DNA from: Solirubrobacterales bacterium | Lineage (GTDB): Bacteria; Actinomycetota; Thermoleophilia; Solirubrobacterales; 70-9 | Assembly: GCA_017882505.1 (NCBI GenBank) | Contig: JADGPJ010000003.1 | Coordinates: 1 to 64,000, forward strand | Direction of reading: 5' to 3' | DNA: 64,000 nucleotides | Part shown: positions 42,925 through 63,367 of the stretch, piece by piece | How the letters are laid out: each line of letters opens with the position of its first letter | How positions within the stretch are numbered: position 1 is the stretch's first letter | Position numbers and translations under genes: made by a program | Notes under the pieces: generated by a model | Databases searched by the model: none | The model's input: only the letters and a program-made list of their open reading frames with translations | What the model was told of the DNA's origin: nothing

Positions 42925-44912
42925 GTGTTCTCGCGCGTCCTGATCGCCAACCGCGGCGAGATCGCGCTGCGGGTCGAGCGCACGCTGCGCCGGCTCGGGA
43001 TCGAGTCGGTCGCCGTCTACAGCGACGGCGACGCCGGCGCTCCCCACGTTCGCGGCGCCGACCGGGCGCTGCGGATCGGGCCGACGCCGGCCCAGCGGTC
43101 CTACCTCGATGTCGAGCGCGTGGTCGAGGCGGCGCTGAGAAGCGGGGCCGAGGCCGTGCACCCCGGCTACGGCTTCCTCTCCGAGAACCCGGAATTCGCC
43201 CGCGCCTGCGCCGACGCCGGGCTGACCTTCGTCGGCCCCGGACCGGAGGCGATGGAGCTGCTCGGCGACAAGGTCGCCGCCAAGGACGCGGCGGCGGCCG
43301 CCGGCGTCCCGATCCTCTCCGGCCTCAGCGGCGAGCGGCTCGGCGACGAGGAGATCGTCGAGTGGGCGGCCGGGGCCGAGCTGCCGCTGCTGCTGAAGGC
43401 CGCGGCGGGCGGCGGCGGCAAGGGGATGCGCGTCGTCACCGACCTCGGCGACCTGCCAGAAGCGCTGGCGGCGGCGCGGCGCGAGGCGCTCGGCGCCTTC
43501 GGCGACGACCGCCTGTTGGTCGAGCGCTACCTGGAGGCCTCCCGCCACATCGAGGTCCAGGTTCTCGCCGACTCCCACGGCGCCGCCGTCCACCTCGGCG
43601 AGCGTGAGTGCAGCCTCCAGCGCCGCCACCAGAAGGTCGTCGAGGAGTCCCCCTCGCCGGTCGTCGACCCGGAGCTGCGCGAGCGGATGGGCGCGGCGGC
43701 GGTTGCCCTCGCGCGGAGCTGCGGCTACGTCAACGCCGGCACCGTCGAGCTGATCGCCGAGCGCGACGACCCCGGCGCCTTCTTCTTCCTCGAGGTCAAC
43801 ACCCGGCTCCAGGTCGAGCACCCGGTCACCGAGGCGGTCAGCGACCTCGACCTGGTCGAGCTGCAGCTGCGGATCGCCGCCGGGGAGCCGCTCGGGTTCG
43901 GTCAGGAGGACGTCCGCCTCGACGGCCACGCGATCGAGGCCCGCCTCTACGCCGAGGACGCCGCCCACGGCTTCCTCCCCTCCGCCGGGCGCGTCGTCGC
44001 CTACCACGAGCCGGCCGGCGTCCGCGTCGACAGCGGTATCGAGACCGGAACCGAGGTCGGCCTCGACTACGACCCGATGCTGGCGAAGCTGATCGCCCAC
44101 GCCCCCGACCGGGCGACGGCCCTGTCGCGGCTCGAGAGCGCGCTCGCCGAGCTCGTCGTCCTCGGCCCGACGACCAACGCCGCCTACCTGCGGGCGCTGC
44201 TGGCGCGGCCCGAGGTCCGCGCGGGCGCGCTCGACACCGGGCTGATCGAGCGCCTCGGCGCGGCGATCGCGCCGCCGGTTCAGGAGCCGGTCTTAGCTGC
44301 GGTGGCGCTGGCGGAGCTCCTCGGTCCGGCCCCCAGCGACGACCCCTGGGACGCCCGCGACGGCTGGCGCCAGTCCGGCCCGGCCTGGGCGCGGGCGCGA
44401 CTGGCCGGCCCCGAGGGCGAGCTCGAGGTCGCGATCCGCCGCGATCCGGTCGCACTTGTCCCCGGTATGCGGGAAGAAGTGCGACCGCGCCGGTGGGGGT
44501 GGAGCGCCGGCGAGGATTCGGGGGCCTTTGCGATCGAGGGCGAGATGCTCACGGTCGCGGGCGAATCCCGGCGGATCGCGATGCATCGAGATGGCAACGC
44601 GATCTGGCTCGTCGACGGCGCCGCCCAGCCGGCGCGGTTCGACCTGGCCGAACAGGCCAATGCCGCGGCGGGTGCCGTCGGCGGCGGCTCGCTCGAGGCG
44701 CCGATGCCGGGGGTCGTGATCGACGTCCGCTCCGAGCCCGGCGCCGAGGTCGCCGAGGGCGACGTCCTCGTCGTCCTCGAGTCGATGAAGATGGAGCTCT
44801 CGATCCAGAGCCCACGGGACGGCGCCGTCGCCGAGGTCCTGGTCGCACTCGGCGACCAGGTCGCCCGCGGGCAGATCCTGGTCGCCCTGGCCAGCGGCGA
44901 GGAGGAGGCGGG

Positions 44913-44916
<4 letters not shown>
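42925..44916 (+). CDS. biotin-dependent acyl-CoA carboxylase alpha subunit (biotin carboxylase + BCCP)
   Basis: [25 protein letters not shown]-terminal VLESMKMEL biotin site. Confidence 0.93.
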
Positions 44917-48303: not shown

Positions 48304-51108
48304 TCAACTGGGGATGTCGCGTCCCAGCCAGCCTTTGTAGAAGCCCTCGATGTCCGGCAGGTACTCGTGCATGACCGGGTAGCCAGGTGGTACGGCTTCC
48401 GTCTCGAGCAGGCGCCCGGAGATCGGGCAGTAGAACTCGCGCAGCTCCTGCCACTCGCCCTCGGGGTGGCCGAGCTTGGGGTAGACCTCCTCGTAGAGCT
48501 CGTCGCTGTCGCGGACGAACATCGGCGCGAACATCTTCCAGTTCTGGTCCCAGCGGCAGAGGTCGGCGCCGGCGTCGGTGCGGATCACCATCTCGCCGTC
48601 GCTGGCGCGGCGGACGATGTTCATCCCCTCGCCGTACGGGAGGACGATGCGGTCCTCGTAGTCGACCCGCTCCTGCAGCAGCTCCAGCCACTTCTCGAAG
48701 CGGTCCGGATCCTTGATCGCGGACTGGATGTCCTTGACGGCGCGGCGGGAGAGTTTCTCGTCGAGCAGGTCGGCCAGCGTCTCGCGGGTGACCTGGGTGG
48801 TCACCGGCACCGCCGCCACCTGGCCCTCGGGCAGGTAGACCTCCGAGTTGGCGAGGAACTCGGCGGCCGAGTCCTCGGGCGTGACCTTGCCCGGGACGGC
48901 GCGGGCGACCATCACGGTCGGCGTCACGACGTCGAAGTCGAAGTCCTCGGGCAGATCCCAGAAGCCGCGGAATTCAGCCGCCCAACCCGGCTCCAGCCGC
49001 ATCGACTCGGAGAACATGACCTTGACCGTCTCGATCAGGTCCTGGTCGAGGATCCGCTGGCGCTGCTCGCTCCACCACTCCGAGGCGGGCCGGGCGCGCT
49101 CGAGGCGATGGCGCATGAGGCCTTCGCGGTCGTCGAGACCGTAGGCCCGCTCCGCCCAGCGAGCCTGGATGTGACCGCCGGCGATGTCCTCCTCGACCCG
49201 CTCCACGCTGCGCAGCAGCGGGTCGCCGAGGCCGCCGCCGCCGCGCCCCGAGGAGAGGTAGAGATCGCCGGTTTTGACCGCGATCATCATCGTGTACGGA
49301 TCCTGCTCGAGCTGGTGCTCGCCGGCGAAGGCGGACATCGCCGCCTCTTCGCCGCTGACGTCGCCGACCGGGTAGGCCTTGCCGTCGGCCGCCTGCTCGA
49401 AGACGTCGGAGCCGAACACGTTGTGGACGTAGGCGCTGGGCGCCGGGTAGCCGCCGAAGAGGCCGGGCGAGGTCAGCATCCCGCCGGCGCCGATGTTCTC
49501 GATCTCGAAGTCCTGGGTGCCGTTGACGAGCAGCAGCGTCTCGAACGAGGAGCCACCGCGGTGGCGGCCCCAGCCACCGGTGTTGGGCTTGATCTGACGG
49601 CCGAGGTAGACCATCGGCTTGACCAGCTCCCACATCTCGATGTCGCCCATGTCGCCCTCGGGGTTGAAGACGGCGGCGCCGTAGTCGAGGCCGTCGAGGA
49701 CGTACTTGGCGCCCTGGCCCTGGGCGCCGATCTCGAAGTTCATGAAGCCGGAGATCTGGCCGTACTGGTCGATCCCGCCGCCCTGGGCGACGTTGCCCGG
49801 GACCGTGTAGGTGGAGACGACCTCCTCGATGTAGCCGCGCGACTGCAGGGCGCGGGAGACCGCGCGCAGATACCCGGTCGAGGTCGTGAACATCGGCATC
49901 CACGGGAACGAGGAGGAGCAGGGAGCGTCGCCGAGGTCGGCCCAGCTGCCCTCGGTCAGCAGCAGCTCGGTCGCGTAGTAGGCGCCGTCGTTGATCTTGT
50001 CGTTGCAGATCAGCGTCTGCGTGAAGAGGATCCACTGCATCCCCTGCTGGGCCGAGGGGGTGGCGTTGAAGGAGTGCCAGCCCCAGGCCGAGGAGCCGCG
50101 CAGGTCGGTGGTCCAGCGGCCGTCCTTGTCGACGATCGCCTCGTAGGCACCGTGGATGATCAGGTCGCGCTGGGCCCGCTTCGGCAGGTTCATCTTGTTC
50201 GCGTATCTGGCCTCGGTGAAGCCGGCGGAGCGGTAGCGGCCGGGGACCAGGAGGCCGCGGACGCGCGACTTGAAGTCGCGGCGGCCATCCTCGATCGCCT
50301 CCCGCATGAAGACCTTGAACGGCTCCTCGCCTTCTTCCAGCACCAGCCGCTCGACCGCGTCGCGGATCATGTGGCAGCCGGCGAGGCGGGTGCGCTCGTC
50401 GAGCAGGTAGAGGCCGGGGGCGCGGCTCTGCATCGAGACGCGCTTGTTGTGCCACGCGGCGATCGTGTCGTTCTCGCCGATCTTCATGCAGTGCAGGTCG
50501 ATGCCGTCGTCGAAGCGGGTGGTCGGCCCCACCGGGACGCCGCCCGGGGTCGTGGCGCCGATGTCCATCACGTGGATGACGCCGCCGGCCCAGCCGAGCA
50601 GCTCGCCGGGGCGGCCGGGGTTGAAGATCGGGACGAAGGTCTGGACGTCGGCGTTGTGGACGTCGCCGATCGTCGGCTGGTTGTTGGCGAAGATGTCGCC
50701 GGGCTTGATCCCGGGGTTGTCCTCCCAGCCGTTGCGGACCATGAACTTGATCGCCTCGCTCATGGTGTGGACGTGGACGATGATCCCGGTCGAGAGCGCG
50801 ACGTTGTCGCCCTCGGGCGTGTAGAGCGCGAAGCAGATCTCGCCGAGCTCGCGGACGATCGGCGAGGCGGAGATGTTGAGCGCGGTCTCGCGCGCCGTGA
50901 CCATGCCGCCGCGGACCCGCGAGAAGAGCTTCTCGAAGTGGAGCGGGTCGGAGTCCTTCATCTCGAGGTCGCGGAGGCCGTGGTAGTAGCCGGTCTCCTC
51001 GAACTTGCGCTCGGAGACGTCGAGCATCTCGGCCAGCTTCAGGCCATCCCAACCGATCGGTGCGCGCTGGTCGGGCTCGAGAGTGCGGACGGTGTCGATC
51101 GTGGCCAT
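48304..51108 (-). CDS. acetone carboxylase-like alpha (HyuB) subunit fused to gamma subunit
   Basis: HyuB motifs (SPIVRELGEICFALYTPEGDNVALSTG, GDVHNADVQTFVPIF); C-terminal about 150 aa DPDRFEKWLELLQERVDYEDRIVLPYGEGM...WDQNWKMFAPMFVRD...YPVMHEYLPDIEGFYKGWLG resembles the acetone carboxylase gamma subunit. Confidence 0.85.
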   Translation of the reverse strand: MATIDTVRTLEPDQRAPIGWDGLKLAEMLDVSERKFEETGYYHGLRDLEMKDSDPLHFEKLFSRVRGGMVTARETALNISASPIVRELGEICFALYTPEGDNVALSTGIIVHVHTMSEAIKFMVRNGWEDNPGIKPGDIFANNQPTIGDVHNADVQTFVPIFNPGRPGELLGWAGGVIHVMDIGATTPGGVPVGPTTRFDDGIDLHCMKIGENDTIAAWHNKRVSMQSRAPGLYLLDERTRLAGCHMIRDAVERLVLEEGEEPFKVFMREAIEDGRRDFKSRVRGLLVPGRYRSAGFTEARYANKMNLPKRAQRDLIIHGAYEAIVDKDGRWTTDLRGSSAWGWHSFNATPSAQQGMQWILFTQTLICNDKINDGAYYATELLLTEGSWADLGDAPCSSSFPWMPMFTTSTGYLRAVSRALQSRGYIEEVVSTYTVPGNVAQGGGIDQYGQISGFMNFEIGAQGQGAKYVLDGLDYGAAVFNPEGDMGDIEMWELVKPMVYLGRQIKPNTGGWGRHRGGSSFETLLLVNGTQDFEIENIGAGGMLTSPGLFGGYPAPSAYVHNVFGSDVFEQAADGKAYPVGDVSGEEAAMSAFAGEHQLEQDPYTMMIAVKTGDLYLSSGRGGGGLGDPLLRSVERVEEDIAGGHIQARWAERAYGLDDREGLMRHRLERARPASEWWSEQRQRILDQDLIETVKVMFSESMRLEPGWAAEFRGFWDLPEDFDFDVVTPTVMVARAVPGKVTPEDSAAEFLANSEVYLPEGQVAAVPVTTQVTRETLADLLDEKLSRRAVKDIQSAIKDPDRFEKWLELLQERVDYEDRIVLPYGEGMNIVRRASDGEMVIRTDAGADLCRWDQNWKMFAPMFVRDSDELYEEVYPKLGHPEGEWQELREFYCPISGRLLETEAVPPGYPVMHEYLPDIEGFYKGWLGRDIPS

Positions 51109-51112
51109 TGGG

Positions 51113-53260
51113 TCAGGCCTCCTTGTTCTCGAGGTGGAAGATGCCGTGCTCGTCGAGCCAGGCCCGGCGGTCGGGCGGGATCGGGAAGGTCGTCGACTCG
51201 GCCTCGAGCACGGCCGGGCCCTCGATCGTGTGGCCGAAGCGAATGTCTTCCATCTCGTAGACGTCGGTGGTCGCGTGGCCGTCGTTCCACCAGACCTGGC
51301 GCGTCTCTTTGACGGTCGGGGCGGCGGCTTCGCGGGGCAGCGTCGGCAGCGTCGGCTGTTCGATCGGGACCGAGCCCTTGACGATCGCCTGGGCGACCAG
51401 GTAGCCGAGCTCGGGCGAGGAGGCGGCGCGGGCGTACATCCGCGTGTAGGTCGTCTCGAAGGTCTCGATCAGGTCGCGGACGTCGTCGGCCGACTCCAGC
51501 GCCGGCTTCGGCGCGTCGACCTCGATGTCGACCAGCTGGCCGTAGTACTGCATCCGCACCATGTGGGTGAAGGAGATGTCCTCGGACTTGTAGCCGGACT
51601 TGGCGAACTCGTCGCGGACGCGGTCCTCGAGCGAGCGCCAGGCCTGGGTCAGGAGGCCGCCCGCCTGCTCGCGTTCGGCGTCGTCCTGGACCGGCATCAG
51701 CGGCAGGTCGACCTGGCGGTCGAAGCGGTACTCGAACTCGGCGCAGGCACAGCCGAAGGCGGAGAAGCCCGCCGCCCACTCGGGCACCAGCACCTGCTGG
51801 TAGGGGACGCCGCTGGTGTAGCCGGCGACGTGCAGCGGGCCGCCGCCGCCGTAGCAGAGCAGGGTGTAGTCGGCGGGGCTGTAGCCCTTGCCGAGGATGC
51901 GGCCGACGGCCTCGTTGCGGAGCGAGGTCTCGAACAGCTCGATCACTCCCGAAGCCGCCTCCTCGACGCCGAGCCCGAGCGGGTCGGCGACCTGGCGCTT
52001 GACCTCGGCCCGGGCGCGCTCGACGTCGAGCTGGACCTGGCCGCCGAGGAAGTACTCGGGGTTGAGCCGGCCGAGCACGAGGTTGAGGTCGGTGATCGAG
52101 ACCGTTTCCACCCCGCCCTCGGGCCAGGCGGTGCCGATCATCGCCCCTGCGGAGTCGGGCCCGATCTCGGGCCGGCGCGCGTTGGGGTCGATGCGGACGA
52201 AGGAGCCGCAGCCGGAGCCGACCGAGTCGATCTGGACCAGCGGCATGTTGAGCAGGAATTTCGCGATGTCCGGGGTCGTCGTCACCTCGTAGCGCTTGCC
52301 GGTAAGCAGCGCGATGTCGAACGAGGTGCCGCCGATGTCGGTGCAGAGCACGTTGTTGAGGTCGATCCGGTCGGCCAGGTAGCGGGCGCCGACGACGCCG
52401 CCGATCGGGCCGGAGACGAGCGTCGTCGCCAGCTGGTCGGCGTCGATCGAGATCGTGCCGCCGTGGGACGCCATCACCCTCAGCTCGAAGGCGGCGCCGC
52501 GCTCCTTGGTGCGGTCGCGGACGGCGCGCAGGGTGCCGCGCGAGGGCTCGGCGGCGTAGGCCTCGATCACGGTCGTGTTCAGCCGCGGGAAGTCGCGGCG
52601 CGAGGGGTAGAGGTCGCTGGAGACGAAGACCGGGCAGTCGCCGTTGACGCTGCGTTTCGCCTTCTCCTCCTCGACGATCTCGCGCACCCGCTGCTCGTGA
52701 GCTGGGTTGCGGTAGCTGAAGATCAGCGAGATGACGATGCCCTCGACGCCGTCGTCGAGCAGCGCGTTGACCGCCTCGCGGGCGTCCTCGTCGCGCAGCT
52801 GCAGGACCTCTTTGCCGAAGAGGTCGATGCGGCCGCGGACACCGTGGACGCGGTCGCGCGGGATCAGCGGGTCGTTGTGATGGTGGGTGGCGATATGGAG
52901 GCGGTCGGCGTAGGAGTAGCCGAGGTAGGTCTGGATGCCGCGCTCCATCTGCAGCGAGTCCTCCTGGCCGGCGGTGACCAGGGCGCCGACGCGGCGGCCC
53001 TTGCGGCTGAGCAGCCGGTTCAGCATCGCGGTGCCGCTGAAGACGGCGGACTGGATCCGCGGGAAGCCCTCCTCCGGAGTCGAGTCCCACTGGCGGAACG
53101 CGTCCTCGGCGGAGCTCATCAGCCCCACGGACTCGTCCTGCGGGGTCGTCTGTGCCTTGCCGACGATGAAGCTGCCCTCGTCGTCGACTATGAACGTGTC
53201 GGTCATCGTGCCGCCAGCGTCAATCGCCAGCACGCGCGGATCGTGCTCTCTCTTTCCCAT
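51113..53260 (-). CDS. acetone carboxylase-like beta (HyuA) subunit
   Basis: LAIDAGGTMTDTFIVDDEGSFIVGKAQTTPQDESVGL, MASHGGTISIDADQLATTLVSGPIGGVVGARYL, DIGGTSFDIALLTG, FSAFGCACAEFEYRFD. Confidence 0.88.
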   Translation of the reverse strand: MGKREHDPRVLAIDAGGTMTDTFIVDDEGSFIVGKAQTTPQDESVGLMSSAEDAFRQWDSTPEEGFPRIQSAVFSGTAMLNRLLSRKGRRVGALVTAGQEDSLQMERGIQTYLGYSYADRLHIATHHHNDPLIPRDRVHGVRGRIDLFGKEVLQLRDEDAREAVNALLDDGVEGIVISLIFSYRNPAHEQRVREIVEEEKAKRSVNGDCPVFVSSDLYPSRRDFPRLNTTVIEAYAAEPSRGTLRAVRDRTKERGAAFELRVMASHGGTISIDADQLATTLVSGPIGGVVGARYLADRIDLNNVLCTDIGGTSFDIALLTGKRYEVTTTPDIAKFLLNMPLVQIDSVGSGCGSFVRIDPNARRPEIGPDSAGAMIGTAWPEGGVETVSITDLNLVLGRLNPEYFLGGQVQLDVERARAEVKRQVADPLGLGVEEAASGVIELFETSLRNEAVGRILGKGYSPADYTLLCYGGGGPLHVAGYTSGVPYQQVLVPEWAAGFSAFGCACAEFEYRFDRQVDLPLMPVQDDAEREQAGGLLTQAWRSLEDRVRDEFAKSGYKSEDISFTHMVRMQYYGQLVDIEVDAPKPALESADDVRDLIETFETTYTRMYARAASSPELGYLVAQAIVKGSVPIEQPTLPTLPREAAAPTVKETRQVWWNDGHATTDVYEMEDIRFGHTIEGPAVLEAESTTFPIPPDRRAWLDEHGIFHLENKEA

Positions 53261-53325
53261 CAGCCGACTGTAGGTCGGCTGATCGCCGGTGTCGTCGTCC
53301 TCCCCAACCGATCTGACCGGCGCCA

Positions 53326-53344
53326 TTTGTGGTCTCGCCACAAA
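53326..53344. promoter_or_regulatory. TTTGTGG-N5-CCACAAA dyad between divergent carboxylase operon and PucR-type regulator
   Basis: Perfect 7-bp arms, spacer TCTCG; 17 bp upstream of the regulator ATG. Confidence 0.6.
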
Positions 53345-53361
53345 CTGGCTACCTTGAACCG

Positions 53362-54615
53362 ATGGCGAACGAGAGCGCGATCGCACCGCCCCACGCGAGC
53401 CGCGGCGAGATCGCCGAGATCGTCGAGAACCTCAGCGCCGAGCTCGACGAAGTCTCCGCCGCCCTCACCGACACGATCCACGAGCACCTCGACGAGCTCG
53501 ACGACGACATGCGCACCTGGACCCTGCAGAGCACGCGGGCGAACCTCGGCGTGATGGTGACGCTGATGCGCGAGGGCGCCGACCCGCGCTCGGTCGTCGC
53601 CCCGCCGGAGGCGATCGGCTACGCCAAGGAGTACGTCGTCCGCGGCCTCGACTTCGGCCTCCTCCAGCGCGCCTACCGCAGCGCCCAGGGGGTCTTCTCG
53701 GGAATGATCCTCGAACGCCTGCGCCAGGCGACCGACGATCCCGACCACCTGGCCGACGCGATGGTCTTCTTCAATGCCTGGATCTTTGCCTGGATCGAGG
53801 CGATCGAGCGCCAGCTGACCGATGTCTACATGGGCGAGCGCGAGCAGTGGGTGCGCGGCGCGGCGGCGATGCGGGCGGCCGAGGTGCGGGCGCTGCTGGG
53901 TGGCGCCCGCGTCGACGTCGCCGAGGTCAGCACCCGGCTCGGCTACGACCTCGACCGCTTCCACGTCGGCTACGTGGTCTGGAACGAGACCGCCGAGGAC
54001 GCGCCCGGCGGCGGCCACGCGCTGTTCGGCGAGATGGAGCAGGTCGCGGCCGCCGTCGCCGAGTCGCTCGGCGCCCGTTCGGCGCTGACCGTCGCCCAGG
54101 GCCGCCACCTCGCCTGCTGGGCCGGGCGCCACGAGCCCCAGCACCTCGGCGACCTCCGGGTCCCTCGCGGCGCCGGCAAGGGGATCTCGGTCGCCGCGGG
54201 GACGCCGGCGCACGGGGTCGAGGGCTTCGTCCTCAGCCACCGCGAGGCGCTGCTGGCCCGCCGTGTCGCCCAGCTGCGCGGCGACTCACGCGCCGCCCGC
54301 GTCACCTTCCCCGACCTCTCCCTGGAGGCGCTGATGGTCAACGACGTCGACGCCGCCCGGCGCTTCGCCGAGCGCGAGCTCGGCGCCCTCGCCGCCGCCG
54401 ACGACGCGACCGTGCGCCTGGCCTCGACCCTCGCCGTCTTCCTCGACGAGGGCGCCAGCTTCGTCCGCGCCGCCCGCCGCCTCGGCGTCCACACCAACAC
54501 CGTCACCTACCGCGTCCACCGCGCCGAGGAGCTGCTCGGCCACCCCGTCGGCGAGCGTCAGCTGGAGCTGCGGGTGGCGCTGCGCCTGACACGGCTGGTG
54601 CCAGCCGACGGCTAG
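53362..54615 (+). CDS. PucR/CdaR-type transcriptional regulator
   Basis: C-terminal HTH: STLAVFLDEGASFVRAARRLGVHTNTVTYRVHRAEELLGHPVGERQLELRVALRL. Confidence 0.88.
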   Translation: MANESAIAPPHASRGEIAEIVENLSAELDEVSAALTDTIHEHLDELDDDMRTWTLQSTRANLGVMVTLMREGADPRSVVAPPEAIGYAKEYVVRGLDFGLLQRAYRSAQGVFSGMILERLRQATDDPDHLADAMVFFNAWIFAWIEAIERQLTDVYMGEREQWVRGAAAMRAAEVRALLGGARVDVAEVSTRLGYDLDRFHVGYVVWNETAEDAPGGGHALFGEMEQVAAAVAESLGARSALTVAQGRHLACWAGRHEPQHLGDLRVPRGAGKGISVAAGTPAHGVEGFVLSHREALLARRVAQLRGDSRAARVTFPDLSLEALMVNDVDAARRFAERELGALAAADDATVRLASTLAVFLDEGASFVRAARRLGVHTNTVTYRVHRAEELLGHPVGERQLELRVALRLTRLVPADG

Positions 54616-54657: not shown

Positions 54658-55698
54658 TCAGTCCCAGGCCACGCGCAGGAGGAGCTTTCCCATGTTGCTG
54701 CCCTCGAAGAGCCGGCCAAGGGCTTCGGGTGCCTTCTCGATGCCGCCGGGGACGATCGTCTCGTCGTAGTGGAGCTTGCCTTCGCCGAGCATGCCGGCGA
54801 GGTGGTTGATCGCCTCTTCGAAGTGCTCGACGTAGTCGAGGACGAGGAAGCCGCGAATCGTCGCCCGCTGCATGATCAGCTGGCCGACGTTGAGCAGGCC
54901 GCTGCCGCCCTCGCCGTCGTTGTAGGTGTTGTACTCGGCGATCATCCCGCAGAGCGAGATCCGGGCGCCGATGTTGAGGTGCATCAGGACCTCGTCCATG
55001 ATCGGGCCGCCGACGCTCTCGAAGTCGACGTCGACGCCGTCGGGCGTCGCCGCGGCGAGCTGCTCGCGCCAGTCGTCGGCGCGGTGGTCGACGCAGGCGT
55101 CGTAGCCGAGCTTCTCGACCGCGTGGCGGCACTTCTCCGGACCTCCGGCGACGCCGACTACGCGGGCGCCGCGCTGCTTGGCGATCTGGCCGGCGATCGA
55201 GCCGACGGCGCCGCAGGCGGCGGAGATCACGATCGTCTCGCCCTCCTTCAGCTCGGAGAGCTGGATCCCCTGGTAGGCGGTGATCCCGGTGTGGCCGAGC
55301 GCCCCGAGGAAGGCCGAGAGCGGCGCCGGCAGCGGGTCCGGGAGCACGGTCAGCGGCGCCTCCAGCAGGTTGTCGTCGGCGAGGCAGAGCTCCTGCCAGC
55401 CGAGGAAGCCGTTGACGATCGCCCCGACCGGCATGTCGTCGCGGCGGGAGGCGATCACCTCACCGACGCCGAGCCCGCGCATCACCGCGCCGAGCGGGAC
55501 CGCCGGCATGTAGCCGCGGATGTCGCTCATCCAGATCCGGTTGGTCGGGTCGAGGGAAAGCAGCTCGGTGCGGACCAGCGCCTGCCCGTCGGTGAGCTCG
55601 GGAACCTCCTCCTCGACCAGCTCGAGGTCGCCGTCGGCGAGGTTGCCGTTGGGTCGCTTGCGAAGGCGGAACGCGCGGTTGACGGTCGTCTCTGACAT
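54658..55698 (-). CDS. NADP-dependent oxidoreductase (MDR, leukotriene B4 dehydrogenase-like)
   Basis: VISAACGAVGSIAGQIAKQRGARVVGVAGGPEKC; LLSLDPTNRIWMSD. Confidence 0.9.
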   Translation of the reverse strand: MSETTVNRAFRLRKRPNGNLADGDLELVEEEVPELTDGQALVRTELLSLDPTNRIWMSDIRGYMPAVPLGAVMRGLGVGEVIASRRDDMPVGAIVNGFLGWQELCLADDNLLEAPLTVLPDPLPAPLSAFLGALGHTGITAYQGIQLSELKEGETIVISAACGAVGSIAGQIAKQRGARVVGVAGGPEKCRHAVEKLGYDACVDHRADDWREQLAAATPDGVDVDFESVGGPIMDEVLMHLNIGARISLCGMIAEYNTYNDGEGGSGLLNVGQLIMQRATIRGFLVLDYVEHFEEAINHLAGMLGEGKLHYDETIVPGGIEKAPEALGRLFEGSNMGKLLLRVAWD

Positions 55699-55742: not shown

Positions 55743-57200
55743 TCATCGGTTCAGTTCGATCGCCCAGCGCTCGGTGGCGACGCGTACGTAGGGGGACTGC
55801 GTGGTGCGGATCAAGTTGCGGAGCTCGTCGACCTCGGGCGCGAGTAGCGGGTAGTCGCGCTTGACCGGCCCGGCCGCCTGCATCGCGGCGATGTCGGACT
55901 CGGGGATCAGTGCCCTGAGGATCAGCAGGTCGTCTTCGCCGGGACCGGTTCCGTGGCGGGCGCGCAGCTCCTCCAGGGTCGGCTGTTCGGGCGGGTTGGC
56001 GACGACGCGGGCGGCGTTGTCGGCGCTCATGATCCGGTTGAGGACCTCGGGGTCGATCGGCGCCGGCGGCTCGCCGTAATGGCCGGCGGTGTAGGCGACG
56101 ACCTGGTCGGGGACGAGCTTGTAGCGATCGCCGCTGACGACGTTGAGCACGGCCTGGGTGCCGACCAGCTGGCTCAGCGGCGTCGCCATCACCGGCCAGC
56201 CGAGCTCGCGCCGGACGTCGGCGATCTCGGCCAGGACCTCGTTCAGGCGATGGGTCATCCCGTGCTGCTCGAGCTGGGCTTTGAGCGTCCCGACCATCCC
56301 GCCCGGGATCTGGTGGGTGACGTTGAAGAGGTCGTACTCGCTGACCTGGTCGACCAGGTGCCCGGCCGCCCTGCCGACGGCGCGGAAGTGCTCGTCGACC
56401 GGCGCCAGCAGCGAGGTGTCGAGCGAGTGATCCCAGCCCATCAGCTCGAGGTTGCGGACGACGCTCTCGGTCGAGGGGACCGAGGGTCCGTTCGACATCG
56501 AGCGGGCCGCCGTGTGCAGGACCTTGACCCCGTGCTTGACCGCTTCGACGTAGGTCAGGCCGGAGGTGCCCATCAGGTTGTTGGCGTGGATCTCGACCGG
56601 CTTCGGCGCCGCCGCGGCGACGATCTTCGGCAGCAGCTCGCGCAGGCGCTCGACTTCGAGCACACCGGCGGTGTCGTAGAAGAGGACACCGTCGATCTCC
56701 GGCACGGCGGCGATCTCGGCCGCTTTCGCCGCCAGGTACTCGTCGGTGTGGACCGGGGAGATCGTGTAGAAGACGGTGCCGACGACCTCGGAGCCGTACT
56801 CCTTGGCGACCCGGGCCAGGCGGGCGAAGTTGTCGATCCCGTAGAGGACGTCGTAGATCCAGTAGGAGCGGACGCCGTGCTCGTTCAGGCGCCGCATCCA
56901 GAGGTCCATCAGGGCATCGGGGGAGACCCCGAAGGAGATGCAGGCGTTGGCCCGCATGCCGCCCCGCATCGGCGTCCGGTGGATCGCGGCGCGCAGCAGG
57001 TCGAGGCCTTCCCAGGGGTTCTCCCGCTTGTACTTGAGCAGCACCTCCATGTGGGAGCTGCCGGCGAAGTCGATGACGCTGAAGCCGGTGCGGTCGAGGA
57101 GGTCGGCGACGGGCAGCGCCATGCCCGCCTGCATCCGCATCCCCCAGAGGCTCTGCTGGCCGTCGCGCAGGGTCGAGTCGAGGATCTCAACGCTGGGCAT
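55743..57200 (-). CDS. biotin-type carboxyltransferase / HMGL-like (OadA / pyruvate carboxylase B-like), no biotin domain
   Basis: LDSTLRDGQQSLWGMRMQAGMALPVADLLDRTGF; NVTHQIPGGMVGTLKAQLEQHG; ends without an M-K-M biotinylation motif. Confidence 0.8.
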   Translation of the reverse strand: MPSVEILDSTLRDGQQSLWGMRMQAGMALPVADLLDRTGFSVIDFAGSSHMEVLLKYKRENPWEGLDLLRAAIHRTPMRGGMRANACISFGVSPDALMDLWMRRLNEHGVRSYWIYDVLYGIDNFARLARVAKEYGSEVVGTVFYTISPVHTDEYLAAKAAEIAAVPEIDGVLFYDTAGVLEVERLRELLPKIVAAAAPKPVEIHANNLMGTSGLTYVEAVKHGVKVLHTAARSMSNGPSVPSTESVVRNLELMGWDHSLDTSLLAPVDEHFRAVGRAAGHLVDQVSEYDLFNVTHQIPGGMVGTLKAQLEQHGMTHRLNEVLAEIADVRRELGWPVMATPLSQLVGTQAVLNVVSGDRYKLVPDQVVAYTAGHYGEPPAPIDPEVLNRIMSADNAARVVANPPEQPTLEELRARHGTGPGEDDLLILRALIPESDIAAMQAAGPVKRDYPLLAPEVDELRNLIRTTQSPYVRVATERWAIELNR

Positions 57201-58722
57201 GCGCGCTCCCGGCCGCCAGCTCGCGCAGCTGGCCCTTGAGCACCTTGCCGGCGGGGTTGCGCGGCAGCTCGGCGACGACGTTGTAGGAGCGCGGTCGCTT
57301 GTGGCGCGCGATCGAGTCGAGGCAGCGCCGGTCGAGCGCCGCCTCGTCGACCTCGGCGTCGGCGGCGGGGACGACGAAGGCGACGATCAGCTCGCCCCAC
57401 TCGGGGTCCTCGACGCCGACGACGGCGACCTCGGCGACGGCCGGGTCGAGGTCGATCACGTCCTCGACCTCGCGCGGGTAGACGTTGTAGCCGCCGGTGA
57501 TGATCACGTCCTTGGCGCGGTCGACGAGGGTGAGACGCCCCTGCCCGTCGAAGCGCCCGAGGTCACCGGTGTGCAGGCAGCCGCCGCGCAGCGTCTGCGC
57601 GGTCGCCTCGGGCATGTCGAGGTAGCCCGCCATCACGGTCGGGCCGTCGACGACGACCTCCCCCACCTCCCCCGTGGGAAGCTCGCGGTCGTCCTCGTCG
57701 ACGACGCGGACGATCAGCCCGACCCTGGCGACACCGACCGAGCGCAGGGCCTCCTCGTCGCCGGCCTCAACCGCGGCGCCGATCGCCGCCTTGCCGTTGG
57801 CGGTGATCGTGCAGGGCGACTCGCCCTGGCCGTAGCCGTTCCAGACGACCGGGCCGAGGGCGCGCACGGCGTCGCGCAGGTCGGCGGGCAGCAGCGGCGC
57901 GGCGCCGGCGATGATCGTCCCGATCCTCCCGGCGGCCTCGCCCGCGCGAGGGTGGGCCGAGAGCCGGCGCAGCAGCGTCGGCGGCACGAAGAAGGTCGAG
58001 CGCCGCCCGGTGGCGAGGAGGTCGAAGAGCTCGTCGGCGTCGAAGCCGCCCGAGGGAGGCAGCACCTGCGCGGCGCCGCGGCAGAGGAAGGGCAGCGACA
58101 TCAGGCCGGAGGCGTGGCTGAGGGCGGCGACGTGGATCATCGAGTCCTCGGGCGTCACCGTGGCGGCGTCGGCGAGGTAGGCGGCCGTCATCGCGAAGAG
58201 GTTGTGGTGGCTGAGCCGGGCGCCCTTGGGCTTGCCGGTGGTGCCGGAGGTGAAGAACGTCCAGGCGTCGTCGGTCGCCGCCCGAGCCACCGGCGCGATC
58301 GGCTCCGGCGCCAGCAGCGCCGCGTCCTCGTCCTCGCCGAAGACGACGACCGGAACCTCGACCTCGGCCACCAGGTCGGCGGCGACGTCGGCGGTCGAGA
58401 AGCAGAGCTTGGCGTGGCCGCGGTCGACGATGTCGGCCGCCTCGCGCGCGTGCAGGCGGCTGGAGATCGGCACCGCGACCCCGCCCGCGTGCCAGATCGA
58501 GAACAGGCTCTCAATGTAGGCGGTGTGGTTGGAGGCGAAGAGCGCGACCGCATCGCCGGCGCCGACACCGTGGCGATCACGCAGGCCCGCCGCCCGCCTT
58601 GCCACCGCCTCGGCCAGCTCGCCCCAGCTGCGCTCAGGGCGATCGCCGACCAGGATCGCGGCTTCGTCCGCGGCCCAGTGGGCGGGGCCGTCGAGCAGCC
58701 CGGCGAGGTTCGCGCCGTACAT
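57187..58722 (-). CDS. acyl-CoA synthetase (AMP-forming, class I adenylate-forming)
   Basis: TFFTSGTTGKPKGARLSHHNLF, GYGQGES, HTGDLGRFDGQGRLTLVDRAKDVIITGGYNVYPREVE. Confidence 0.92.
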   Translation of the reverse strand: MYGANLAGLLDGPAHWAADEAAILVGDRPERSWGELAEAVARRAAGLRDRHGVGAGDAVALFASNHTAYIESLFSIWHAGGVAVPISSRLHAREAADIVDRGHAKLCFSTADVAADLVAEVEVPVVVFGEDEDAALLAPEPIAPVARAATDDAWTFFTSGTTGKPKGARLSHHNLFAMTAAYLADAATVTPEDSMIHVAALSHASGLMSLPFLCRGAAQVLPPSGGFDADELFDLLATGRRSTFFVPPTLLRRLSAHPRAGEAAGRIGTIIAGAAPLLPADLRDAVRALGPVVWNGYGQGESPCTITANGKAAIGAAVEAGDEEALRSVGVARVGLIVRVVDEDDRELPTGEVGEVVVDGPTVMAGYLDMPEATAQTLRGGCLHTGDLGRFDGQGRLTLVDRAKDVIITGGYNVYPREVEDVIDLDPAVAEVAVVGVEDPEWGELIVAFVVPAADAEVDEAALDRRCLDSIARHKRPRSYNVVAELPRNPAGKVLKGQLRELAAGSAHAQR

Positions 58723-58766
58723 CGATCGCGTCCTCTCGCCGGACCGCTCGCGCGGGCCCGCCGCCG

Positions 58767-60257
58767 TCAGCTCCCCGAGTTGCTCGTCGCCGCCGCCAGC
58801 TCGGCGGCCTGCGGGGCATCGGGATGGTTCTTGGCCCAGACGTCGTCGTCGTAGTGGCGCAGGTCGAACGCCTTCGAGTGGAACGCCTTGGCGGCCGCGT
58901 TGCACTCGTCCTGGGTCAGCTTGCCCTGGGTCGTGGTCCACTTCGCCGTTTTCGCCGGCAGCGAGGTGCTGCCCGCCTCGATCGGCCCGACGCCCGCGGT
59001 CCACTCGTCGTCGGCCAGCACCGAGTAGGGGATCGGGGTCCACATCTCGGACCGCTCACCCGAGTAGCGGGCCATCCGGTGCGGGCTGCGGTTCTGCGAG
59101 GTCAGCGTGATCAGGCCGACCAACTCGGCGATCGCCGAGTTGCCGTACTCGTCGTTCATCAGCGGCTTGAAGCGCTGGGTGCGCTCGTCGACGAGCATCC
59201 AGTCGTCCTGCTCGTAGACGCCGGCGAAGTGGGCGACGTCTTTGAGGGTCCCGTAGTAGACGAGGAGCCCCGCGTCGATCATCTGCTCGCGGCTCCAGCC
59301 GGCCATCATCTTCCACATCGTCGCGGTCGCCGACTCCATCTTCGCCCGCTGGTCGTCGAGGTAGTCGGCGAGCTCGGAGGCGCTGTCCATGTGGACCGGG
59401 ATGTACCCGTCGGAGAGGAAGTCGGAGGCGTAGACCCCGAGCGAGACCAGGTTGTCGTTGTTGTAGGACGGTTCGGCCTCGAAGCTGCCCCAGTCGTCGA
59501 CCATGTTGAAGTGGGTGTCCTTCATGGTCACCGTGATCGTCAGGTTGTTGTGCTCGATCTCGCCCGCCACCCCGTCCATCCACGGGTAGTCGCACTCGGA
59601 GAGGTCGAGGGCATCGCGGACGAGCATCTCGTTGCCGTCCTTGGTCTTGTACGGGCCGTGGTTGCAGAAGCTCAGCCGGCACTCGCAGTGGCTGAGGAAG
59701 CCGTAGGCGGAGACCGCCGCCATGAAGCGGGTGAAGGCGGTGTGGAGCTTGTCGCCGGACGTGACGCCGATCGCGGCGTCTTCGAAGGCCTCGGTCTGGC
59801 GGGCGGTGTGGATCTGGTCTTTGTGGTTGCCGTCGCTCGGCATGATGTGCGCCTCGGAGCGGTGGTAGGCGAGGTTGAGGCGCCGCGTGAAGTCGAGCAC
59901 GTCCATCATGTCTTCGACCGCGTCGGTCGGCTTCAGGATCCCCATGTCCAGCAGCCACTGATGACCGCCGAGGTAGAACTGGGTGGCCACGTCCATCGTG
60001 ATCGTGTTGACGTAGCTGCCGACCTGGCGGGCGCGGTCGGCGATCTCCTCCGCCGGCATCGCCGCGTCGATCTTGCGCACCAGCTCCGGGTAGCGGTACC
60101 AGGCGTTGTAGTAGGAGAGCGCGATGTAGGGGTTGACGGGGAAGAGTTTCGACTCCTGAACGGTGCGCGTCGTGCACTGGAAGTAGAAGGAGTCGGCGAG
60201 CTTCTGGATGTAGGTGTTGACATCCAGCACGTCCACGTAACTGCGTTTGATCGGCAT
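58767..60257 (-). CDS. protein of unrecognised family, 496 aa, in dikinase operon
   Basis: Long ORF, operonic, no family I recognise; HCECRLSFCNHGPY and AYHRSEAHIMPSDGNHKDQIH segments rich in His/Cys. Confidence 0.8.
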   Translation of the reverse strand: MPIKRSYVDVLDVNTYIQKLADSFYFQCTTRTVQESKLFPVNPYIALSYYNAWYRYPELVRKIDAAMPAEEIADRARQVGSYVNTITMDVATQFYLGGHQWLLDMGILKPTDAVEDMMDVLDFTRRLNLAYHRSEAHIMPSDGNHKDQIHTARQTEAFEDAAIGVTSGDKLHTAFTRFMAAVSAYGFLSHCECRLSFCNHGPYKTKDGNEMLVRDALDLSECDYPWMDGVAGEIEHNNLTITVTMKDTHFNMVDDWGSFEAEPSYNNDNLVSLGVYASDFLSDGYIPVHMDSASELADYLDDQRAKMESATATMWKMMAGWSREQMIDAGLLVYYGTLKDVAHFAGVYEQDDWMLVDERTQRFKPLMNDEYGNSAIAELVGLITLTSQNRSPHRMARYSGERSEMWTPIPYSVLADDEWTAGVGPIEAGSTSLPAKTAKWTTTQGKLTQDECNAAAKAFHSKAFDLRHYDDDVWAKNHPDAPQAAELAAATSNSGS

Positions 60258-60267
60258 CTGATTCCCC

Positions 60268-60987
60268 CTAGGAGATCTTGATAATCCGGGCGCGATGACC
60301 GCTCGCGCTCTCGGCGTCGGCGTAGGCGTCGGCGGCGGGCTTGGAGTACTCGACGGTGACCTCGTCGCCGTCGGCGAGCCCGTCCAGCGTCGCGTTCATC
60401 AGGCACGGCACGTTGTACTCGCGGGTGAGGATCCCGAGGTGCGAGCGGACCGTGCCCCCCATGCAGACGACGGCCTTGAAGTCGCCGAGGATCGGCGCGG
60501 TCAGGGTGCCGCCGGAGTCGTCGATGATCGCCACCGTGTTCTCGGGCACGCCGCCGGTCAGCATCTCCATCACCCTGTCGACGTCGGAGATGTAGCGGGC
60601 GGTGCCGGTGACGTCGGCGGGAGCCTTGAAGACGTTGTCGCCGTGGCCGACGATCGGCCGCCCCTGCTCGTCGGACTCGTTCTCGCCGGTGTTGGCGATG
60701 CCCGCCAGCGGTTTGTATTTGTCGGGCTCCTCCTTGAGCGAGATCGTCGCCGAGACGTCGAACTTGTAGCCCTCGGCGAGCAGCGCCGCCTCGATCTTCT
60801 CGAAGTCCTCGCGGGTGGGCTCCAGCGAGCCGTCTTCGACCGCCTGCTCCCACGTCTTGCCGCTGGCGGCGAAGCGCTCGGCGACAAGGGCCCTGATCGC
60901 GCCGTGGTACTTCTCGACCGTGGGCGTCGCCGACTCGCGGGCCCAGATGTCCGGGTACGGCCTTGCGGCCGCGTCTGAATCGCTCAC
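60268..60987 (-). CDS. stand-alone PEP-utilising-enzyme mobile (phosphohistidine swivel) domain protein
   Basis: GDFKAVVCMGGTVRSHLGILTREYNVPCLMNATLDGLADGDEVTVEYS; GTG start overlaps the preceding stop (GTGA). Confidence 0.8.
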   Translation of the reverse strand: MSDSDAAARPYPDIWARESATPTVEKYHGAIRALVAERFAASGKTWEQAVEDGSLEPTREDFEKIEAALLAEGYKFDVSATISLKEEPDKYKPLAGIANTGENESDEQGRPIVGHGDNVFKAPADVTGTARYISDVDRVMEMLTGGVPENTVAIIDDSGGTLTAPILGDFKAVVCMGGTVRSHLGILTREYNVPCLMNATLDGLADGDEVTVEYSKPAADAYADAESASGHRARIIKIS

Positions 60988-62756
60988 GTCTGTTTCTCCT
61001 CCTCGAGATTCGCCTTCTCCTGAGCCAGTCGCAGCAGCAGTGCGGCGGTGGGCTGTCCTGGCAGTCTCTCCAGCTTGGGCACGCCCGCGGCGATCAGCGC
61101 CCGCGCGCCCTCGGCGCTCGCCAGCACCGAGCCGCGCGCGGCGGCGGCCCCGCGGAGGCGCTCGGCGAGAGCCTCCGGGTCCGGCGCGCCCTCGTCGATC
61201 ATGACTCCCTCGGCGTCGAGGTCGACCGCGCCGGGCGCCTCGTCGACCACCTCCACCGGGCTCAGCTCCCTTGCCCACTCGATCAGCTCGCTGAGACCGG
61301 GAATCTCGGTCGGGTCGACCTCCTCGGTCGGCAGGACGCCGGCGTAGACGACACCGGCGGAGCCGTCGACGGTGAGCTCGCGGCCGACGAGCCCGTCGGT
61401 GACCCCGTCGCCGACGCCGACGACGCTGGGCCGGCCGAGGGCGCGGGTGACGACGGCGGCGTGGGAGGTCGAGCCACCGCGCTCGGTGACGACGGCGCGA
61501 GCGGCGATCATGCCGCTGACGTCCTCGGGGCTGGTCGTCGGCCGGACCAGGACGGCCCCGCCCTCGTCCGCCTCTGCGGCCTCGGAGTCGGAGACCGCCC
61601 TGCCGCCGGCGACGCCGGGGCAGGCGGCGACGCCACGGGCGACGATCTCGGCCCCGGCGGTGACCTCCTTGGAAAGACGGGGGGCCAGCACGGTCGCGAG
61701 CTGCTCGGCGCTGACCCGGCAGACCGCCTCCTGGTGGTCGATCGCGCCCTCGTCGGCGAGGTCGACGGCGGCGCGAACGGCGGCCAGCGGCGAGCGCTTC
61801 GCCGATCGGGTCTGCAGCAGGTAGAGATTGCCGCGCTCGACCGTGAACTCGATGTCCTGGACGTCGCCGTGCTCGCGCTCGAGCAGCTTCGCCGCCTCGA
61901 GCAGCCGCTCATGGGCCTCGGGCATCTGGCTCGCCAGGGCATCGAGCGGCAGCGGGTCGTGGGTGCCGCTGACGACGTCCTCGCCCTGTCCCTTCGCCAA
62001 CCACTCGCCGTAGGGCTCGGGGTGGCCGCTGAGCGGGTTGCGGCTGAAGAGGACGCCGGTGCCGGAGTCCTCGCCGAGGTTGCCGAAGACCATCGCCTGG
62101 ACGATCACCGCGGTGCCGCCCTCCTCGGAGATGCCCCAGTGGCGGCGGTAGGTCTTGGCGCGGCGCGAGGACCAGGAGCCGAAGACGGTGCTGATCACCG
62201 CTCGCAGCTGCTCGTGGGGATCGCCGGGGACCTCCTCGCCAGTGTCGCGGCGGACGGCCTCGCGGGTCTCCCCGGGAGTCGCGTCCTCCCCGGGCTCCTC
62301 GATGTCGGCGCCGAGCACGGTCTGGCCGAACTGGTGGATGAAGCGGTTGTGAGTCGAGCGGGCGAAGGCCTCGTCGCCGGAAAGGCGGCCGAGCGCCGCC
62401 TCGACGTCGTCGGTGATGCCGAGGTTGAGGACCGTGTCCATCATCCCCGGCATGCTCACCGCCGCACCCGAGCGGACCGAGACCAGCAGCGGGTGCTCGC
62501 CGCCACCGAATTCGCGTCCCAGCTTTTCCTCGAGGCCGGTGACACCGGCGAGCACCGAGCTCCAGGCCTCGTCTTCGAGCTCGCCGCCGGCGGCGTGGAA
62601 GCGGCGGCACTCGTCGATCGGCAGGCACAGCGCCGGCGGCACCGGCAGGCCGAGGCTGAGCATCCAGGCGATGCTGCGACCCTTGTTGCCGACGACCTCG
62701 CGGCTCGGCACCGTGGCGCCGTCGAGAACGACGACGCGGTCGGCGACTGCGGTCAA
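60984..62756 (-). CDS. truncated pyruvate,phosphate dikinase-like protein (ATP-grasp + His domain, no PEP/pyruvate barrel)
   Basis: VSVRSGAAVSMPGMMDTVLNLG, MVFGNLGEDSGTGVLFSRNPLSG, DIEFTVERGNLYLLQTRSAKR, VTERGGSTSHAAVVTRALGRP; 590 aa; TTG start. Confidence 0.88.
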   Translation of the reverse strand: MTAVADRVVVLDGATVPSREVVGNKGRSIAWMLSLGLPVPPALCLPIDECRRFHAAGGELEDEAWSSVLAGVTGLEEKLGREFGGGEHPLLVSVRSGAAVSMPGMMDTVLNLGITDDVEAALGRLSGDEAFARSTHNRFIHQFGQTVLGADIEEPGEDATPGETREAVRRDTGEEVPGDPHEQLRAVISTVFGSWSSRRAKTYRRHWGISEEGGTAVIVQAMVFGNLGEDSGTGVLFSRNPLSGHPEPYGEWLAKGQGEDVVSGTHDPLPLDALASQMPEAHERLLEAAKLLEREHGDVQDIEFTVERGNLYLLQTRSAKRSPLAAVRAAVDLADEGAIDHQEAVCRVSAEQLATVLAPRLSKEVTAGAEIVARGVAACPGVAGGRAVSDSEAAEADEGGAVLVRPTTSPEDVSGMIAARAVVTERGGSTSHAAVVTRALGRPSVVGVGDGVTDGLVGRELTVDGSAGVVYAGVLPTEEVDPTEIPGLSELIEWARELSPVEVVDEAPGAVDLDAEGVMIDEGAPDPEALAERLRGAAAARGSVLASAEGARALIAAGVPKLERLPGQPTAALLLRLAQEKANLEEEKQT

Positions 62757-63367
62757 GGAGCCTCCTCGCGCTCGCGTCCGAGCATCCTCAGCAGATCCTC
62801 GTGGAGCTCGAACCAGACCGTGTGGTAGCTGTCGATGCGGACCCCGCTGACGAAGTCGAGGTCGCCGGCGAGCGTCTTGTCGTGGGCCTCGTCGAGGCGC
62901 TCCCTGTAGACCGACATCCGCGGTTGCAGCTCGGCGAAGCGGTCGATCACCTTCTCGGCCCGCTCATGCTGGGCGCCGAGGCGGTCGACGATGCCGTGGT
63001 CGTAGTCGGCGTCGGAGTGGTCGTTGGGCACCCGCTCGCCGCCCCCCGAGGGCATCATCTGCCAGTCGGTGAAGAGTTCGAGGAGCGCCCGGTTGATCCG
63101 CTCGAAGCGCTCGTAGGTCTCGGTCCCGGCGGGGTCGGCGCGAAAGTCGGCGAAGGCCTCGGGGTAGCGCTCGTCGAGCCACTCGCGTCCGGCGGGAGTG
63201 ACCATGAAGGTCCCCTTGGCGCCGGCCGCGCGGCCGGCCTCGACCGCGGCCTCGAGGGCGGCGGCGACGCCGGCCTCGTCGGCGCCGAGGATCGCGGCGA
63301 CGGCCTCGGGCCCCCCGGCCTTCTTCACAGCCAGGCCGTGCAGAGCGAGCAGGTCCAGATCAGTCAT
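62753..63367 (-). CDS. hypothetical protein (204 aa), first gene of dikinase operon
   Basis: Stop overlaps the dikinase start (TTGA); N-terminal region looks winged-helix-like. Confidence 0.65.
   Translation of the reverse strand: MTDLDLLALHGLAVKKAGGPEAVAAILGADEAGVAAALEAAVEAGRAAGAKGTFMVTPAGREWLDERYPEAFADFRADPAGTETYERFERINRALLELFTDWQMMPSGGGERVPNDHSDADYDHGIVDRLGAQHERAEKVIDRFAELQPRMSVYRERLDEAHDKTLAGDLDFVSGVRIDSYHTVWFELHEDLLRMLGREREEAP

Follow-up and report, generated by a model that had tools for sequence, protein, structure and literature searches.

Here we propose a role for an orphan protein of 496 amino acids, P0002, which we consider likely to be the subunit that holds the phosphate acceptor in a multi-component small-molecule dikinase derived from pyruvate, phosphate dikinase (PPDK), a proposal that draws on gene context and on natural fusions. 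The window, meaning the whole stretch of DNA that was analysed, comprises 64,000 nucleotides from a Solirubrobacterales bacterium, and in it the orphan gene lies within a tight minus-strand run in the order alpha205, PPDK-like, swivel, orphan, acyl-CoA ligase and carboxyltransferase. The features of this region are:

48304..51108, minus strand, hydantoinase B fused to a C-terminal acetone carboxylase gamma domain (PF02538 1.6e-73, PF08882 4e-32)
51113..53386, minus strand, hydantoinase A / acetophenone carboxylase gamma-like subunit, with its true start probably inside the listed open reading frame
53362..54615, plus strand, PucR-type regulator that separates the kinase operon from the HyuAB pair
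54658..55698, minus strand, zinc-type NADP-dependent oxidoreductase (ADH_N_2 and ADH_zinc_N)
55743..57200, minus strand, PYC/OADA-type carboxyltransferase, 485 aa (PF02436 7.4e-30)
57187..58722, minus strand, AMP-forming acyl-CoA ligase, 511 aa from MYGANLAG (PF00501/PF13193)
58767..60257, minus strand, orphan P0002, proposed substrate-binding subunit, 496 aa, ATG at 60257 and stop at 58767
60268..60987, minus strand, stand-alone swivel P0003, 239 aa, GTG start (PF00391, PEP-utilizers mobile domain, 2.1e-5)
60984..62756, minus strand, P0004, PPDK-type ATP-grasp with its own His swivel, VadK-like, 590 aa, TTG start (PF01326, PF00391)
62753..63367, minus strand, alpha205 (P0005), 204 aa, without known family, partner of the truncated PPDK

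The alpha205, PPDK-like and swivel genes are joined by 4-nt overlaps, and the gap between the orphan and the acyl-CoA ligase gene is 44 nt. An earlier note had placed a 496-aa open reading frame at 58767-60257, directly downstream of the swivel gene, and both statements hold: the frame fits these coordinates exactly, on the minus strand (which that note did not give), and its ATG, closely preceded by GGGGGA, lies 10 nt past the stop codon of the swivel gene. The codon-position composition score (0.66), relatives in congeneric genomes (92, 80 and 48% identity) and a dN/dS of 0.18 against the 92% identical relative, a sign of purifying selection, together indicate that P0002 is a working gene. 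Its core domain spans approximately residues 1-355, and the C-terminal extension (approximately 360-496) is confined to the close subfamily. Antisense to it runs an open frame of 560 aa (58599-60281 of the window, plus strand), an effect of high G+C. Genome G000 carries a second orphan copy, in two pieces at the end of contig C69 (31618-31863) and the start of contig C109 (6-1211), with 55% and 50% identity over residues 1-82 and 93-493, respectively; these are probably one gene split by assembly.

The kinase side of the run is a truncated PPDK. P0004 carries the PPDK_N ATP-grasp domain (PF01326, 5.9e-36), keeps the motifs RSGAxxSMPGMMDTxLNLG and TSHAAVV, and in Pfam shows PPDK_N and PEP-utilizers only, with no PEP/pyruvate barrel; its alignment to the PPDK structure 1kbl (8e-104) ends at or just after the swivel. 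It scores 659.9 bits against NCBIfam NF004531 (cut-off 456), a family of which Rv1127c is presumably a member. The swivel histidine of P0004, His432 in TSHAAVV, is kept in at least 95% of 64 relatives, and that of P0003, His183 in the motif rSHLgIL.REy, in at least 95% of 72; since both are conserved, we propose a His-to-His relay.

Among 396 genomes of the phylum, alpha205 occurs in 34, including all six that have the orphan, for which the chance would be about 3e-7 if the two were independent, a figure not corrected for kinship. In a mycobacterium-like genome, judged as such from PE/PPE-like proteins, an alpha205-type gene overlaps a VadK-type truncated PPDK by 4 nt (L132, 5756-8016), and the genomes around L131 and L132 yielded no orphan. 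This distribution and this adjacency indicate that alpha205 travels with the truncated PPDK. By gene layout it may represent the Rv1126c family. We regard swivel and orphan as a pair added onto truncated PPDK plus alpha205.

Relatives of P0002 were confirmed at 140 places in a scan of GTDB genomes and are spread over Actinobacteria and Alpha-, Beta- and Gammaproteobacteria. Eighty of these loci were fetched, 45 of them with wide flanks; because the scan query was the closer alignment (A3), the 80 lean towards close relatives. A swivel gene lies directly upstream of the orphan on the same strand in 79 of the 80, and the probable exception (L065) is a sequence that starts just 139 bases before the orphan match. 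In the 45 wide loci the orphan is accompanied within 10 kb by alpha205 (44), a PPDK-like gene (42), CoA ligase (41), BCCP (41), PYC/OADA-type carboxyltransferase (41), BC (40), thiolase (18) and phosphatase (14), counts that come from single queries and probably understate rarer neighbours such as the last two. Homologues beside PPDK-like genes are thus clearly present elsewhere, and the earlier note had named their absence as grounds for giving up its proposal. The three loci with no PPDK-like gene nearby (L094, L100 and L101) count against reading P0002 as a dikinase subunit. Between-family distance correlations of 0.47 to 0.71, calculated without correction for species phylogeny, are not counted as evidence.

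The recurrent order is swivel, orphan, CoA ligase, alpha205, PPDK, BCCP, BC and carboxyltransferase, often with thiolase next, and is seen in Rhodococcus, Pseudonocardia, Amycolatopsis, Alphaproteobacteria and Gammaproteobacteria. The operon of R. oxybenzonivorans is annotated in RefSeq as PEP-utilizing enzyme, hypothetical, AMP-binding, hypothetical, pyruvate phosphate dikinase, biotin/lipoyl, biotin carboxylase, carboxyltransferase, OB-fold, thiolase and tyrosine-protein phosphatase. In the window genome BC and BCCP are not beside the cassette carboxyltransferase; contig C119 has a BC gene followed directly by a carboxyltransferase paralogue, and there is a fused BC-BCCP at 42925-44913. The zinc-type oxidoreductase adjoins the cassette in congeners too. 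Beyond it, the hydantoinase B-gamma fusion next to a HyuA-type subunit is a fused version of acetone/acetophenone carboxylase subunits, and this HyuA/HyuB pair with its acetone carboxylase gamma domain points to ketone metabolism nearby. Searches of the literature for this operon or for its substrate turned up only HpeHI and VadK.

Some loci depart from this pattern. A distant cassette (L036, 2783-8215) encodes a PPDK-like protein that, at 852 aa, exceeds P0004 in length, and between its swivel and orphan lies one more protein, of 153 aa. Two distant orphan loci have no carboxylase in sight: one adjoins a PucR-like regulator and a protein of 314 aa without assignment (L018, 6773-7717), the other a probable P450 (L017, 11399-12625), and these branches likely use other substrates. 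At a further locus (L016, 8225-9166) a phosphotriesterase-like amidohydrolase, which could be a product-handling enzyme, lies directly 3' of the orphan and alpha205 genes.

Natural fusions place the orphan inside the kinase. Rhodococcus, Pseudonocardia and relatives have a second set with swivel and orphan in one chain, exemplified by the 541-aa protein of R. koreensis (L075, 5477-7099). This set (L075, 3855-8271; also L129, 8899-13269) comprises a small swivel, an orphan and the swivel-orphan fusion, together with a conserved but unassigned protein of about 382 aa. In two genomes, R. opacus B4 and G071 (L017), swivel, orphan and alpha205 form one chain of about 795 aa. In the 793-aa version on R. 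opacus B4 pROB02 the swivel covers residues 16-143, the orphan 225-549 (E 3.5e-41) and alpha205 609-789 (7e-38), and the fusion gene has a free-standing PPDK gene and one for a tyrosine-protein phosphatase close to it.

The sequence of P0002 itself matched nothing in Pfam, NCBIfam or the PDB sequences, alone or as a 58-row profile, and the members of that profile gave no family match when searched one by one; weak Pfam and PDB matches of single relatives were scattered and taken as chance. The earlier note's remark that no family could be assigned is therefore confirmed, and the profile and structure searches it had recommended matched P0002 to no characterised unrelated family. The AlphaFold2 model built from the 58 rows (pLDDT 88.5, pTM 0.90) had no significant Foldseek match in the PDB, where the best hit reached E 0.57 and no probability exceeded 0.11; of the 316 chains that VIA-align aligned, none scored Z 2 or higher. 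In the same structure pipeline, residues 1-115 of the swivel-orphan fusion model matched the swivel of rifampin phosphotransferase (RPH; 5fbu, Z 14.8, rmsd 2.1 over 104 residues) as well as those of PPDK, enzyme I and pyruvate kinase, and this recovery of the swivel indicates that the pipeline works. The absent fold match for P0002 is no proof of a new fold. A profile comparison of P0002 with the RPH substrate domain in hhalign gave 0.1% probability, with a shared fold still possible; among RIF-binding-type domains the comparison covered that of RPH, to which no relation was detected.

Conservation was read from two alignments, of 58 close and 14 wide rows. Residues kept in the family are T32, S36, L38, P40, Y44, P57, F187, R194, G201-P202-Y203, R214, W226, P263, G330, Y334 and A345-G346, of which R194, GPY201-203, R214, W226 and P263 form the conserved core. 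In the wide alignment R194, G201 and P202 are kept in 14 of 14 rows and Y203 in 13. The His/Cys/Asp clusters that had looked conserved from the single sequence are not: the histidines of the first cluster recur in 5 (H132), 6 (H137), 2 (H145) and 4 (H150) of the 14, and in the second cluster C191, C193, C198 and H200 recur in 6, 5, 4 and 3. As no His or Cys of either cluster is kept in more than 10 of the 14 wide relatives, they do not behave as invariant metal ligands, and a reading of P0002 as a His/Cys metalloprotein was rejected. Arginine and aromatic residues around the 'R......GPY' core would suit a mostly non-polar, phosphate-receiving substrate.

P0002 is nearly always beside, and at times fused to, a phosphate-carrying swivel, and therefore it probably holds the small molecule to be phosphorylated. 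We infer substrate binding by P0002, the phosphate relay and the identity of the substrate as follows. P0004 would take phosphate from ATP onto His432, whose equivalent in VadK, His422, has been shown to be phosphorylated (PMC13400623). From there the phosphate may reach His183 of P0003 via the swivel of P0004 itself; alternatively, His183 could be charged directly in the ATP site of P0004. Charged P0003 would then dock on P0002 and phosphorylate the substrate bound there, so that P0002 with P0003 apparently takes the place of the PEP/pyruvate barrel, and alpha205 may assemble or steady the P0004 side.

The PYC/OADA-type carboxyltransferase of known enzymes carboxylates the methyl group of a keto compound. 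In the proposed pathway a carboxylase of this biotin-dependent type would act on the phosphorylated compound, the carboxylated product would be activated by the acyl-CoA ligase and then cleaved by the thiolase, and in some operons a phosphatase would remove the phosphate. The Hpe pathway begins with the phosphorylation of a hydroxyphenyl ketone by HpeHI; the biotin enzyme HpeCBA carboxylates the phosphorylated form only, and HpeD then dephosphorylates, HpeE joins CoA and HpeF cleaves (PMC9618137). By analogy, what is phosphorylated here is probably a hydroxylated ketone, and Hpe-like logic, the carboxyltransferase type and the thiolase together point to a hydroxylated methyl ketone as the most probable type of substrate. 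A plain ketone that ends up as its enol phosphate is also possible. A more specific version, in which P0002 is a structurally new substrate module of a ketone dikinase that relays phosphate via two swivel histidines, phosphorylates the enol of a simple ketone and so primes it for biotin-dependent carboxylation, is conceivable though doubtful; if true, it would be a biotin-based counterpart of acetone carboxylase in Actinobacteria and several classes of Proteobacteria.

The reading given in the earlier note thus stands in part. Its main suggestion, that P0002 is the likely substrate-binding subunit of a dikinase, has good support from gene context and fusions: the swivel is adjacent (79/80), PPDK-like genes are neighbours (42/45), natural fusions occur and P0004 lacks a barrel. 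Conserved His/Cys clusters and detectable homology to the RIF-binding domain of RPH did not emerge. A system with two swivel histidines rather than one is unusual, which speaks against the subunit role, as does the lack of homology or fold match to RPH, the only solved substrate domain of its kind.

The best of the alternatives, which we still consider unlikely, is that P0002 acts enzymatically on the phosphorylated product, for instance as an ATP-driven dehydratase or lyase, with the kinase module serving only as phosphate donor. According to the available part of a report on Sterolibacterium, a tertiary alcohol is dehydrated in an ATP-dependent manner via a phosphorylated intermediate (PMC7411048), so that enzymes of this sort exist; that part names no genes, and no link from it to P0002 was found. 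The invariant Arg, Trp and Asp residues of P0002 would also fit an enzyme, as would fused systems such as that of R. opacus B4, which occur with P450 and alcohol and aldehyde dehydrogenases and without carboxylase. However, most loci set the orphan in a biotin carboxylase cassette, and an orphan fused between swivel and alpha205 sits inside the kinase. Less probable again is a His-phosphorelay that regulates metabolic enzymes, with P0002 as the regulated or regulating protein. This has been proposed for VadK, which phosphorylates itself on His422 and has been presented as a regulatory kinase (PMC13400623), and P0004 is a VadK-type protein; yet the operons here are dedicated to catabolism and encode CoA ligase, carboxylase, thiolase and phosphatase, the swivel-substrate-domain architecture is that of HpeH, and P0002 has no known regulatory domain. 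That P0002 is an unrelated metabolic enzyme sharing only its operon with the kinase would suit a protein with no known sequence or fold relative, but is highly improbable given three fusion layouts and a swivel adjacency (79/80) that holds across phyla, including at loci without the other genes.

The preferred reading, that P0002 holds the phosphate acceptor, offers a role for a family without a Pfam, NCBIfam or PDB relative or a significant fold match, whose members, present in well over a hundred genomes, mostly carry the annotation 'hypothetical protein'. On this view swivel dikinases would have gained a new substrate module in more than one way, P0002 becomes a candidate for the acceptor side of VadK-type truncated PPDKs, and environmental (soil, marine) and contaminant-degrading bacteria would have a so far undescribed pathway of phosphorylation followed by carboxylation.

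Compared with known systems, P0004 has the ATP-grasp and swivel in common with PPDK (8e-104 to 1kbl) but is without the PEP/pyruvate barrel. RPH likewise combines ATP-grasp, swivel and a special substrate domain, and its swivel fold matches; in RPH, however, all three are in one chain, and no relation between its substrate domain and P0002 was detected. VadK (Rv1127c) of M. tuberculosis is the same kind of truncated PPDK as P0004 (NF004531), and its solubility was improved by co-expression with its operon partner Rv1126c (PMC13400623). The VadK-type gene of the mycobacterium-like L132 likewise keeps a small neighbour of about 200 aa, of alpha205 type, where VadK has Rv1126c as operonic partner. 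Unlike the system proposed here, VadK is described as a regulatory kinase, and the orphan is absent around L131 and L132.

By working principle the module would belong with the split small-molecule dikinases of the PpsAB/CreHI/HpeHI class, its activity being predicted. HpeHI (hydroxyphenylethanone dikinase of Rhodococcus rhodochrous GD02), CreHI and PpsAB are likewise barrel-less, with the ATP-grasp split from a swivel plus substrate part (PMC12167813, PMC9618137). HpeI, CreI and PpsB resemble PEP synthase (PMC12167813), and HpeI has no swivel, whereas P0004 is of PPDK type with its own. The orphan-system swivel is a separate or N-terminal domain, in contrast to HpeHI; there is an extra partner protein, alpha205, and no relation of the substrate protein to the RIF-binding-type domain was detected. 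Swivel and orphan in one chain with the ATP-grasp in another reproduce the layout of HpeH plus HpeI, and from the adjacency (79/80) and the fusions we infer that the part joined to the swivel is the substrate holder. The HpeHI cluster likewise includes a biotin-dependent carboxylase, a phosphatase and a CoA ligase (PMC12167813, PMC9618137). The orphan cassette has a thiolase instead of the beta-ketoacyl-CoA hydrolase of the Hpe pathway, and the orphan operon of R. oxybenzonivorans parallels HpeHI-CBA-D-E-F (PMC9618137).
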